From: Bacteroidia bacterium
GTDB lineage: Bacteria; Bacteroidota; Bacteroidia; CAIKAF01
Length of the DNA: 64,000 nt
Reading direction: 5' to 3'
NCBI GenBank assembly: GCA_030427255.1
Contig: JAUHWY010000002.1
Location: 1 to 64,000 of the forward strand
A model generated the notes under the pieces. The model was not told where the DNA came from and searched no databases. It worked only from the letters and a program-made list of their open reading frames with translations. Within the stretch, counting starts at the first letter, position 1; each line of letters starts with the position of its first letter. The position numbers were made by a program, and so were the translations under genes. This document shows, one piece after another, positions 11,103 through 22,544 of the stretch.

Positions 11103-11195
11103 TGAATGGTGAATGGTAAATGATAAATGGTAAATGATAAATGGTGAATGATAAATGGTGAATGATAAATGGTGAATGATAAATGGGGAATGATG
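11091..11195. repeat. Heptanucleotide tandem array, consensus AATGRTR, 15 units
   Basis: Fifteen 7-bp units run without interruption (AATGGTG, AATGATG, AATGGTA, AATGATA variants). The array starts within the last codons of the AlgX-like gene and ends at the hairpin series. A shorter three-unit version precedes the corresponding hairpins at 21005-21025. Seven is not a multiple of three, so copy-number change could shift any frame read through it. Confidence 0.9.
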
Positions 11196-11265
11196 AGGTA
11201 AAGACGGGACATTTCCCGTCTCTCAATGATAATTAAAGACGCAACATCTTGCGTCTCATTTTTTT
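11196..11265. repeat. Hairpin pair GACGGGA/TCCCGTC and GACGCAA/TTGCGTC with T-run
   Basis: Two short hairpins: GACGGGACATTTCCCGTC at 11203-11220, and GACGCAACATCTTGCGTC at 11238-11255 followed by a run of seven or eight T. The second has the form of a rho-independent terminator for the + strand acyltransferase operon. The same order (one or more GACGGGA hairpins, then one GAC(G/A)CAA hairpin plus T-run, then a GC-rich element) recurs at 21026-21224. Confidence 0.8.
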
Positions 11266-11490
11266 GGCCGCCTTATCCTGCTGTCAGCGGTAGTGCCCCG
11301 TCTCCGGCCCACGGTATGAGGCCGCTCCGGGGTCTTCGTCCCTCAGCCTCCTCGCCAGGCCGCATACCGGGGCCCGAGCCGGGTCAGCTACCTGCTTCCA
11401 TCAGGGGCGGGGGAATACCGTACTTTCTAAAATGGTCGGGCACATTCAGGAAAAGAGTTCTTTTATTTGAGGCTTGGTCAAGCCGGCTTT
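11266..11490. repeat. GC-rich structured repeat, copy A
   Basis: A GC-rich block much richer in G+C than its surroundings. It contains an imperfect long stem: GGCCCACGGTATGAGGCC (about 11306-11323) pairs with GGCCGCATACCGGGGCCC (about 11361-11378). The segment is closely similar to 21217-21585, where the two share CTTATCCTGCTGTCAG-type starts and a common 3' part (CAGGGGCGGGGGAATACCG, then AAAATGGTCGGGCACATTC). No credible gene inside. Confidence 0.8.
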
Positions 11491-18411: not shown

Positions 18412-20307
18412 ATGTTTATTAGAATTCCATTTTTTATTTACCTCTGCCTTTGGGGGCTTAGTTTATCTGCGCAAAGCTTGGATAGTTTGCTCCAAATAGG
18501 TCCCGCAGGAAGGGACAGCATTTGGATGAAAAGCATTATCAGTCAATCCTTTAGGGAGGTATATAAGGGTCCGGCATTTACAAGTCATGCCTTAAAAGAG
18601 GCATTAGACTACGCCAAAGGGCCGGTCTTGGGAAAGTTTAAACCAAATCTACTGGTGAATTTGGGTATTGCCGCCGATGTTCAAAACCAAAGCGACAGTG
18701 CCTTTTATTACAACCGACGAGCCATGGCGGCGGCTCGAGAAATCAAAGACACCTTAGTATATGCATCGGCCCTTAATAACATAGGCCTGGTGCACTGGAA
18801 CCATGAAGTGTTGGACTCTGCCCTGATTTACTTTCAGCAATCGGAGGCCTTGTTTACACGCATTCGATTTAAAAAAGGACTGGCCAGTTGCCTCAACAAC
18901 ATCGGTTTAATTTACCAACAGCAAAACCGATACCAAGAAGCCATGCCCTATTTTAGGCGTACACTTTCGCTGGCACGCGAAGTGGAGTCCAAATATTTTG
19001 AGGTATCCGCATACGCCAATATGGCCGACAACTGGGCATTTACCGGACAGATGGACTCTGCCTTGGCAGCCTTTAATTTGGCCATTGATTTGGAAGTGGC
19101 CTCCGAAAACTACTACGGACTTGCCAGATTATACCATTCCCGGGCTACTTTTTACATACAGGCCAAACACTATGAAAAGGCATCGAAGGACTTGCACCGA
19201 GCCATGCGCATCAACCAAATTATTGGAAACGAACACATGCTGGCAAGCAACCAATCCGTTATGGCATTTGTGCAGCAAAAGTTGGGGCATTTTGACTCAG
19301 CTTACCACTATTTAGATCAGGCCAGCCTCCTAAAAAAAGACCTCAACGATTTTGGATTAACCACCAAAATCAAGCGGCAACTTATTAGCCTTAAGGTACG
19401 CCGACTAGACACCCTGATTTACCAAGAGCTGAGCCAAATGCTAAAACAGGTGGACAGCCTACAAGAGCTTAAGCTCAGCGAAAAAGTATTGGAATTGCAA
19501 ACCCAATACGAAACCGAAAAAAAAGAGCGACAGCTGCGGCTGCAAGCCCTGGAGTTGGAAAATGCCCGCCGAAAAAGCAGATCGGAACGACAACTCGCCC
19601 TTAGTTTGGGCCTTTTTACCTTGGTATTGGCCGCTAGCGGTTTCGGATGGTACCGCTACCGAAAAAAACTAAGCGACTTGGCCTACCAACAAGCCTTGCA
19701 GAAAGAAAAAACACGCATTTCACGTGACCTCCACGACCATGTCGGTTCACAGCTTACCTCCATTCAAATGCGGATGTCTATGGTATTTCATGAGGTACCA
19801 CAGGCCACAGGTAAAACCAAAGCCGAAATGGACCATTTGCAAGAAGAAGCCAGGCAAACTGTAGATATGCTCCGCGATACCATCTGGGCTATCAACCAAG
19901 AACAGTTCAGCTTAGAAGACTTGTCCTTGCGCCTTCAAAACTATGCCAAGCGCAGCCTTCCCTCAAACCTTGAATTTTCCATAAGTTGCGATGGGCACAA
20001 AGACCTCATGCTGAATTCGCTTGTTGCGCTTAACTTGTTTCGAATGGCGCAAGAGGCTTTTCAAAACATTCAAAAACACGCGAAAGCCACACAGGTTCAT
20101 GTAAAACTTAAGGAGCAAGCGGGCCGAGTAACACTCAACATTAGCGACAATGGTATAGGTTCCGACCTGAGCTTAGAAAACAACGAAAGACCCCATTATG
20201 GGCTTCAAAACATTCAAGACCGAGCCAAGGAAATTCAAGCCAAAGTACAGTTCATAAGCAGACCGGGAAATGGCTTTGCCGTGGAGGTGCAACTCCGACC
20301 AAAATGA
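18412..20307 (+). CDS. TPR-containing sensor histidine kinase (HisKA_3/LytS-NarX type)
   Basis: 631 residues from the ATG at 18412, which gives a good signal peptide (MFIRIPFFIYLCLWGLSLSAQ). Periplasmic TPR repeats span about residues 60-330 (e.g. ASALNNIGLVHWNHEVLDSALIYF), followed by a coiled coil, one membrane helix near 397-417 (LALSLGLFTLVLAASGFGWY), the phosphoacceptor box ISRDLHDHVGSQLTSIQ (His near 439) and an HATPase domain with DNGIGSD and HYGLQNIQDRA. It probably senses an extracytoplasmic signal and phosphorylates the response regulator encoded 48 bp downstream. Confidence 0.93.
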   Translation: MFIRIPFFIYLCLWGLSLSAQSLDSLLQIGPAGRDSIWMKSIISQSFREVYKGPAFTSHALKEALDYAKGPVLGKFKPNLLVNLGIAADVQNQSDSAFYYNRRAMAAAREIKDTLVYASALNNIGLVHWNHEVLDSALIYFQQSEALFTRIRFKKGLASCLNNIGLIYQQQNRYQEAMPYFRRTLSLAREVESKYFEVSAYANMADNWAFTGQMDSALAAFNLAIDLEVASENYYGLARLYHSRATFYIQAKHYEKASKDLHRAMRINQIIGNEHMLASNQSVMAFVQQKLGHFDSAYHYLDQASLLKKDLNDFGLTTKIKRQLISLKVRRLDTLIYQELSQMLKQVDSLQELKLSEKVLELQTQYETEKKERQLRLQALELENARRKSRSERQLALSLGLFTLVLAASGFGWYRYRKKLSDLAYQQALQKEKTRISRDLHDHVGSQLTSIQMRMSMVFHEVPQATGKTKAEMDHLQEEARQTVDMLRDTIWAINQEQFSLEDLSLRLQNYAKRSLPSNLEFSISCDGHKDLMLNSLVALNLFRMAQEAFQNIQKHAKATQVHVKLKEQAGRVTLNISDNGIGSDLSLENNERPHYGLQNIQDRAKEIQAKVQFISRPGNGFAVEVQLRPK

Positions 20308-20355
20308 AACAATCCTCCCATAGTCAAAAAAGCCATAAAGCTGCATCTTTGAGCT

Positions 20356-21006
20356 ATGATACGAGTAGGCATCGCAGAGGACAACCCCAAGTTCCGCAGT
20401 ACCTTAGCAGAAGCACTGGGCAAGCAACCGGGCATTGAACTATGCTTTGTGGCTTCCAACGGCAAAGAGGCCCTACAGGCTTGTTTAAAAGAAGATTCAA
20501 AGCCACAGGTAGTATTGATGGATATCGAAATGCCCATCATGAACGGCATTGAGGCCACCGGCAGACTAAAACAATTGGCGCCGGAAGTCAAGGTGCTTAT
20601 GTTAAGCATTTTGGATCAAGACCAGCACTTGTTTGACGCCATAGTCCAGGGAGCCGCCGGCTATATGGTAAAGGGGGAAAGCCCGGAGCGTTTGGTGCAA
20701 GCCATACAAGACGTTATGGAAAACCGCCTCCCACTTTCTCCGGTGCTCGCCTTGAAGGCATTGTCCTTTTTAGGAGGACAACAAGCCGCTCAAAAAAAGG
20801 GATTGGAGGACCACGCCTTAACAACTCGCGAAATAGAGGTATTAAAACTGCTTACTCAAGCCAAGCATTACAAAGAAATTGCCGAAGCATTGTTCATCAG
20901 CGAGCGCACGGTGCGCAACCATATTCATCACATTTACAAGAAGATTCAAGTCTCAAGCAAAGCAGAAGCGCTACGAAAAGCTTGGGAAGAAGGGTGGTTT
21001 GATTAA
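20356..21006 (+). CDS. NarL/LuxR-family response regulator
   Basis: 216 residues. Receiver domain with acidic pocket (GIAEDNP), phosphoacceptor Asp in VVLMDIEMPIMNG near residue 55, and Lys in MVKGESP near 104; C-terminal LuxR helix-turn-helix (LTTREIEVLKLLTQAKHYKEIAEALFISERTVRNHIHHIYKK region, 152-195). The partner of the TPR kinase. A CATCTTTG box ends 4 nt before the ATG, so it may also be transcribed separately. The stop codon abuts the heptamer array. Confidence 0.95.
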   Translation: MIRVGIAEDNPKFRSTLAEALGKQPGIELCFVASNGKEALQACLKEDSKPQVVLMDIEMPIMNGIEATGRLKQLAPEVKVLMLSILDQDQHLFDAIVQGAAGYMVKGESPERLVQAIQDVMENRLPLSPVLALKALSFLGGQQAAQKKGLEDHALTTREIEVLKLLTQAKHYKEIAEALFISERTVRNHIHHIYKKIQVSSKAEALRKAWEEGWFD

Positions 21007-21224
21007 TGATGAATGATAAATGATGAGGTAAAGACGGGACATTTCCCGTCTCTGGATGGTGAATGATGCAGTAAAGACGGGATGCCTCCCGTCTCTGGAT
21101 GGTGAATGATGCAGTAAAGACGGGATGCTTCCCGTCTCTGGATGATGGATGATGAGGTAAAGACGGGACATTTCCCGTCTCTGAATGATAAGTAAAGACA
21201 CAACATCTTGCGTCTCATTTTTTT
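21005..21224. repeat. Heptamers plus five hairpins (GACGGGA family)
   Basis: Three AATGATR units (21005-21025) lead into four GACGGGA/TCCCGTC hairpins at 21033-21050, 21076-21093, 21119-21136 and 21162-21179, each in a roughly 43-bp unit TAAAGACGGGA...TCTGGATGGTGAATGATG. A fifth hairpin GACACAA/TTGCGTC at 21197-21214 is followed by a T-run, like a terminator. The order matches the 11.1-11.27 kb cluster exactly. Not CRISPR: the units are palindromic and the spacers are themselves repeats. Confidence 0.85.
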
Positions 21225-21585
21225 GGGCGCCTAATCCTGCTGTCAGTGGTAGTGCCTCGTCTCCGGCCCACGCTGAGACCGTTGACGCGTTGTGCTTTCA
21301 AGGCGAATTAAGGCACACCCAAATCGAAAGTCCGGAGTTTACTATTTGTAAATGAGGACCTTGAGATTGGGGTGTAACGCAGAGTCGCCGCCTGAATAGC
21401 AACGCGTCAATAGTCTCACGGTCTGTGGCCGCTCCAAGGTCTTCGTTCCTCAGCCTCCTCGCCAGGCCGCATACCGGGGCCCGAGTCGGGTCAGCTACCT
21501 GCTTCCATCAGGGGCGGGGGATACCGAAAATTCTAAAATGGTTGGGCACATTCGGGAAGGGAGCTCTATTTTTTGACCAGCCTAT
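21225..21585. repeat. GC-rich structured repeat, copy A2, interrupted by a small element
   Basis: Both ends match the 11.27-11.49 kb copy (CTGCTGTCAGTGGTAGTGCC at the left; GCCAGGCCGCATACCGGGGC and TCAGGGGCGGGGGATACCG at the right). After CTCCGGCCCACG the alignment is broken by about 145 bp and resumes at GGCCGCTCC. The intruder is annotated separately. Confidence 0.8.
21274..21418. mobile_element. TIR-flanked small element, copy 2, nested in a GC-rich repeat
   Basis: Left end TGAGACCGTTGACGCGTTG and right end CAACGCGTCAATAGTCTCA are inverted repeats matching at 17 of 19 positions. The interior can also fold on itself (GGCACACCCAAATC with GATTGGGGTGTA, and GTTTAC with GTAAAT), so the whole is one long hairpin. 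It codes for nothing obvious, so it would need a transposase in trans. The interruption of the flanking repeat is direct evidence of insertion. Confidence 0.75.
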
Positions 21586-21653: not shown

Positions 21654-22544
21654 ATGTTTAATATACTGCGTTCTTACTCCACAGTCACAGGTGCCTGCCT
21701 AGCTTTTTTAGTGCTCTCTCTTTCGTCCGTCTTTGGGCTTTTTGGCCAAAATTTACATTTTACCGACACCGCCTTAAAATCATTTTTACTTCAAGAAATG
21801 AGCTTGGATTTAGATTCCAATGGCTTGGCAGATGCTTTCTTGGATGCCAATTCAGACGGGGAAATCCAACAAAGCGAGGCCTTGCAAGCCAAGCGTTTGG
21901 TCATTATAACCGGCCAAAATTATCCTATCCTGCATGTGGGAGATTTACAAGCATTTACACAATTAAAAAGCCTTCATTTACAACGAAACGGCTTAATTGA
22001 TTTCGTAGGTCTCCAACTGCTCAACCTTCAAGAAGTATACTTATCAGACATGAACCTTATGGATCGTGTAGACCTTTCCGGCTGCCCCAACCTGCATACT
22101 ATTGTATTGGAAAGCCTAAGCCATTTGAAGCACTTAAACCTAAAAAACGGAAGCTTTGCAAACCAATCCTTTTCCTTGTTTTACACCAATGTGGTGGAAA
22201 GCGCATGCGTTGATTCCATTCAAGCGGAATACGATGCCGTGGCACAGTGTTTTTTAAATGGAAATAGCCCAAGTTACACCTGTAGCATGGGTCAAAATAC
22301 CACGGAGCAAGGACTCGAGAACCAAAATCCGGTCATAGCCTTCCCAAACCCCTGTTCCAATTTTTTGAACCTCCAAGCCATGGAGAAACCCGTGTCCATT
22401 AGACTATTCAATCTACAGGGGCAGGAGCTATACTCATCTTCTCAAACCAATTCAGTTCCAATGGCCAAATACCCGCCAGGCTTGTATAGATTACTAATCC
22501 AAAGCTCAAATCAAAGCCACTGTATTTCCATTGTCAAAGAATAG
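21654..22544 (+). CDS. Secreted leucine-rich-repeat protein with type IX sorting domain
   Basis: 296 residues with signal peptide (ACLAFLVLSLSSVFGLFGQ). After LSLDLDSNGLADAFLDANSDGEI-like text (a calcium-binding DxNxDG loop near residues 66-72) come leucine-rich repeats (LQAFTQLKSLHLQRNGLIDFV, LNLQEVYLSDMNL, CPNLHTIVLESLSHLKHLNL). The C terminus is a sorting domain (SIRLFNLQGQELYSSS, YPPGLYRLLIQ). It resembles other short LRR surface proteins of the phylum. Probably a binding or adhesion protein; partner unknown. Confidence 0.85.
   Translation: MFNILRSYSTVTGACLAFLVLSLSSVFGLFGQNLHFTDTALKSFLLQEMSLDLDSNGLADAFLDANSDGEIQQSEALQAKRLVIITGQNYPILHVGDLQAFTQLKSLHLQRNGLIDFVGLQLLNLQEVYLSDMNLMDRVDLSGCPNLHTIVLESLSHLKHLNLKNGSFANQSFSLFYTNVVESACVDSIQAEYDAVAQCFLNGNSPSYTCSMGQNTTEQGLENQNPVIAFPNPCSNFLNLQAMEKPVSIRLFNLQGQELYSSSQTNSVPMAKYPPGLYRLLIQSSNQSHCISIVKE

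Follow-up and report, generated by a model that had tools for sequence, protein, structure and literature searches.

A 143-bp element that interrupts a GC-rich dispersed repeat is, in our firm estimation, a MITE with GAGACYGTTGAYGCG ends that was very probably moved in trans by a transposase of the IS5 family (transpos_IS5_4, similar to ISCca7, ISPg1 and ISPg4). It occupies positions 21275 to 21417 on the forward strand of the window, by which we mean the whole 64,000-nucleotide stretch of DNA that was analysed, and its entire length forms one imperfect hairpin. All the features by which MITEs are recognized were found: the element is short and geneless, shares its inverted ends with other copies, has a duplication of constant length at its flanks, and has an empty site. 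As bacterial mobile DNA it is well supported but ordinary in kind, and it has close precedents in Porphyromonas and Streptococcus. What is unusual is the completeness of the evidence, and the part that could surprise is the covariation of the hairpin together with the smaller hairpins that are plugged into it.

Boundaries, Ends and Fold of the Element

The original prediction described 145 bp at 21274-21418 with 19-bp ends, 17 of 19 positions pairing. Inverted ends are indeed present at these coordinates (19 nt, 89% complementary, with arms 107 nt apart), but each boundary was off by one base. Comparison of 90 copies sets the bounds of the element at GAGAC...GTCTC, a length of 143 bp, with terminal inverted repeats of 18 bp in which 16 of 18 positions pair. 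T21274 and A21418, the outer bases of that description, fall outside the MITE; each is the innermost base of one copy of the target duplication. The left terminal inverted repeat, GAGACCGTTGACGCGTTG, spans 21275-21292 on the forward strand, and the right one, which reads GAGACTATTGACGCGTTG on the minus strand, spans 21400-21417; both were placed by an inverted-repeat search, end-motif counts and the comparison of copies. The element as a whole starts with GAGACCGTTGACGCGTTG and ends with CAACGCGTCAATAGTCTC. Immediately outside it lie the two copies of the 5-bp target duplication, to which no strand is assigned: ACGCT on the left (21270-21274), one change away from the ancestral ACGGT, and ACGGT on the right (21418-21422), identical to the ancestral sequence. 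The mismatch in the left copy is one of the points against the case.

The single-strand fold of the element, computed as DNA, reaches -36 kcal/mol compared with -18.9 kcal/mol in shuffled sequences (z = -5.9), and none of 200 shuffles folded as well. The extended hairpin that had been described is confirmed. The absence of a gene inside it was likewise borne out, the 143 bp containing no gene and no long reading frame. No match at the Rfam gathering score was found in the window.

Insertion into a Dispersed Host Repeat

The host repeat is a GC-rich, dispersed sequence of about 190 bp, of which 11 copies were found (loci L096-L104 and the window). The part to the left of the element (21180-21269, forward strand) is 93% identical to 11212-11313, and the part to the right (21423-21527, forward strand) is 91% identical to the same copy at 11.3 kb. 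This uninterrupted copy, delimited at about 11223-11420 (from 11212, forward strand) by alignment to the window and to the genome copies, provides the empty-site reference, and the alignment confirmed the interruption that had been noticed relative to it. The ten copies other than that at 21.2 kb, the 11.3-kb copy included, align over about 150-240 bp with 88-100% identity to the 11.3-kb query; all ten are uninterrupted and all carry ACGGT at the insertion point. Note that these empty sites are paralogous copies of the host repeat and not orthologous sites. An orthologous empty site was sought through the flank at 19800-21000, which had no match in five other genomes of the genus.

Since all ten other copies are uninterrupted and carry ACGGT, to which the right duplication is identical, the difference between copies results from insertion at 21.27 kb and not from loss elsewhere. 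The insertion postdates the spread of the host repeat. The opposite polarity, in which the 145 bp would be an ancestral part of the host repeat that disappeared, by precise loss, from the 11.3-kb and other copies, has a vanishingly small probability. It draws on nothing beyond the difference in presence and absence, and the original prediction had tied it to finding the 145 bp in every copy of the host repeat, when in fact all ten other copies lack the element. Furthermore, dozens of unrelated contexts hold the same 143 bp, flanked by 5-bp duplications. The host-repeat comparison and the duplications in the delimited copies together refute the loss scenario.

Small palindromes, AAAGACGGGACATTTCCCGTCTCT and AAAGACGCAACATCTTGCGTCTC, occur in several copies at 21026-21190 and 11190-11260, where they adjoin both host-repeat copies, and short matches related to them are present elsewhere in the genome. 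They resemble a further family of REP-like repeats.

Family Size, Distribution and Target Sites

The window belongs to a Flavobacteriales genome (G000) available as a draft assembly of 3.2 Mb in 57 contigs. A search of this whole genome with the 145-bp query returned 42 matches (E ≤ 0.001), and the end motif GAGRCCGTTGAYGCGTTG was present at 161 places with at most three mismatches, compared with 4 for the reversed control. Further copies sharing these ends, the object of a search proposed in the original prediction, are numerous. The motif is similarly abundant in a congener, the public MAG JAGYKD01 of Flavobacteriales bacterium M30B58 (G004), with 133 occurrences at two or fewer mismatches against 1 in the control. 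These two are the only genomes with the family among six searched in the genus. No full copies were detected outside them in 60 relatives and 16 genomes of the order, one genome (G012) giving a single partial match of 54 bp (E = 7.7e-4).

We delimited 90 copies from fetched loci of G000 and G004, a sample below the real totals. One sequence family takes in 89 of the 90; 33 are exactly 143 bp long and the others range from 87 to 327 bp. The MITE is present in at least several dozen copies. Perfect 5-bp duplications flank 31 of the 90 copies, against a mean of 0.56 and a maximum of 4 in 500 shuffles, and another 26 copies match at four of the five positions. Duplication lengths of 2, 3, 4, 6 and more showed no comparable excess in the same 90 copies. 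The target-site duplication, whose determination had been suggested, is therefore 5 bp.

Target sites are AT-rich in the middle. They also avoid open frames: after removal of the element and one copy of the duplication, 5 of the 90 sites lay inside a frame that stays open for 60 codons or more to either side, whereas the proportion for positions drawn at random from these loci was 46%. One locus on contig C30 of the window's genome (L005, 1501-1768) contains members of the family in tandem, in the arrangement AATTA-143 bp-AATTA-120 bp-AATTA, as if the second element had inserted at a target copy of the first.

A Candidate Mobilizing Insertion Sequence

A search of both genomes with PF01609 (DDE_Tnp_1) recovered one gene only, in the congener G004. 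Its product is a transposase of the IS5 family (NCBIfam transpos_IS5_4, E = 1.2e-69; Pfam DDE_Tnp_1 and DUF772), and the IS is bounded by GAGACCGTTGACG and GAGACTGTTGACGCG in correct orientation, 1302 bp apart. The window's own genome retains a 245-bp remnant of an IS end (G000:C30:3839-4079; L160 and L169) that is 87% identical to the G004 IS and carries the terminal repeat GAGACCGTTGACGTTTTC. The transposase gene with matching ends that the original prediction had proposed to find was located in the congener, with a fossil in the genome under study. In other bacteria, related IS5-family copies have GAGACC ends at equivalent places, and around two of them the 5-bp duplication is perfect (AAAAT at L147 and ATATC at L156). 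Another congener (G002), which is without the MITE family, has a decayed IS5-family transposase gene with eight in-frame stops (G002:C9:206-1174, L159) and a GAGACCTTTGCA end downstream.

These sequence matches suggest that an IS5-family transposase very probably moved the MITE, and an IS of the G004 type would have been its source. The transposase, supplied in trans, would recognize the GAGACYGTTGAYGCG ends; a 5-bp staggered cut would be made at ACGGT within the dispersed repeat at 21.27 kb; the 143-bp element would be joined at the cut, and repair would double ACGGT.

The IS and the MITE have no more than their terminal 13-16 bp in common, and elements may be missing from a draft assembly. 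Both points would suit mobilization by a different enzyme, one that acts on similar ends and is absent from the assembly, the match with the IS5-family IS being coincidental. We consider this explanation improbable. With about 130 MITE ends in 3.0 Mb, an oriented pair around the sole gene of this kind is very unlikely to arise by chance; moreover, GAGACC ends occupy corresponding places in the IS relatives, two of which have a perfect 5-bp duplication, and the fossil in the window's genome ends in the same repeat. The IS5-family transposase is accordingly preferred as the probable mover. A match restricted to the termini indicates that IS and MITE use the same ends, and it does not support an origin of the MITE as a shortened copy; an internal deletion of the IS was rejected on this ground.

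The reading frame of the G004 IS has an in-frame TAA near its start, and no target duplication was found around this copy or around several degenerate relatives. Allowing for MAG errors, the copy is probably dead. No working IS copy was found in G000 or G004, and given this lack of an intact copy the family is probably immobile in the window's genome at present.

Longer candidates were also considered. One pairing of ends, 2.2 kb long (L067, 113-2349), was put down to chance, since four bases of one end mismatch and a duplication is lacking. Singleton ends were evaluated as possible termini of hidden long autonomous elements and nearly all resolved to short pairs of 330 bp or less. No new autonomous element was found near about 30 end motifs in G000 or in 20 regions of G004.

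A Covarying Hairpin with Accessory Mini-Hairpins

Among 32 full-length copies of 143 bp, 97.4% of the cells in 49 modelled pairs are standard pairs, compared with 92.6% in shuffled data, and none of 500 shuffles matched the real copies. In 15 of the 49 pairs both sides change. Structures slid from the modelled hairpin scored far worse. Traced on a tree of 67 cores, intermediates of the G-U type outnumbered those of the A-C type on the modelled strand by 63 to 34 (p = 0.004), and by 23 to 10 in the interior alone, in a test that uses simple parsimony on a small tree. An excess of G-U is the expectation when the fold of one strand matters, be it RNA or single-stranded DNA; template switching between the arms also produces covariation.

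A primary role for the element in the host, as a structured RNA or regulatory hairpin whose mobility is only incidental, would account for the paired changes, for the strand-specific excess and for the intergenic position of the sites. We nevertheless judge it unlikely. Copy number, the variety of contexts, the duplications and the confinement to two of six genomes favour mobile DNA; correction by template switching between the arms of a palindrome, or a constraint on a DNA hairpin, would also yield covariation; and the G-U test has the limits of tree and method given above.

Copies longer than the MITE core mostly consist of the 143 bp plus one or more mini-hairpins of 24-28 nt, built on CCTGAC-6 nt-GTCAGG or on a CCGAC variant (loci L018, L021, L023, L025, L026, L029, L057, L070, L089 and L093, among others). 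The mini-hairpins sit at some four points of the core, around positions 27-33, 54-60, 83-86 and 107-112, which are roughly symmetrical between the two arms, and they are sometimes in tandem. Exact matches to the pattern number 108 in G000, with none in the reversed control. Five occurrences outside the delimited copies were checked, four of them lying in decayed members of the family and one being isolated. Both 327-bp copies are flanked by perfect 5-bp duplications, and the long forms therefore moved as units.

It is conceivable, if more doubtful than not, that selection acts on the single-strand fold of the MITE (as RNA or as single-stranded DNA from one strand) and that only about four hinge points, which spare the core fold, accept mini-hairpins. 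If so, the family would represent a modular folded mobile element whose hairpin is maintained by compensatory changes, with intermediates of the G-U type favoured on one strand. With their exact ends, duplications, covarying pairs and mini-hairpins, the roughly 90 copies constitute a good natural data set on why MITEs keep a long fold. The family also accounts for a major dispersed repeat in this Flavobacteriales genome, and the insertion at 21.27 kb, later than the spread of its host repeat, orders part of the history of that genome.

Relation to Known Elements

The closest known parallels come from Porphyromonas gingivalis, in which MITE464/MITEPgRS have the ends GAGACTGTTGCA/TGCAACGGTCTC and the IS5-family ISPg4 has the end GAGACTGTTGCA; both MITE464/PgRS and BrickBuilt are tied by their ends to the IS5-family elements ISPg4, ISPg1 and ISPg9 (PMC4596501). 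MITE464/PgRS resemble the window family in being geneless and dispersed, in having IS5-type ends that start with GAGACYGTTG, and in being linked to an IS by these ends, but their name reflects a length of about 464 bp, and they contain internal 41-nt tandem repeats (PMC4596501). The window family, in contrast, has a core of 143 bp forming a single long hairpin, ends that continue with GAYGCG and not CA, at least several dozen copies and a well-documented 5-bp duplication. BrickBuilt elements share IS5-type ends (e.g., GAGACCTTCGCA), intergenic location, predicted long stem-loops and inner repeated units that vary in number; they differ in having an internal 23-nt minisatellite, duplications reported to be of irregular length, and about 19 copies (PMC4596501).

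The modular construction recalls BOX of Streptococcus pneumoniae, a folded core with a variable count of inner modules whose fold hardly touches the rest (PMC3049150). This likeness is one of modular structure, no sequence relation having been noticed. The window family differs from BOX in that its modules keep to some four fixed positions, distributed over both arms, and in that its ends match an IS of the IS5 family. The Correia elements of Neisseria are MITEs of 100-155 bp that make up about 2% of the genome and have been linked by some authors to an IS5-family IS, but their inverted repeats are 26 bp long and their target duplication is a 2-bp TA (PMC3898611).

Genomic Neighbourhood of the Window Copy

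The MITE at 21.27 kb is itself intergenic. It lies between a gene at 20356-21006, named a LuxR-type response regulator from reading its sequence, and an open reading frame that starts at 21654. The latter (21654-22544, 296 aa) begins shortly past the host repeat and has a leucine-rich middle; its C-terminus, judged by eye, resembles a type IX secretion sorting tail.
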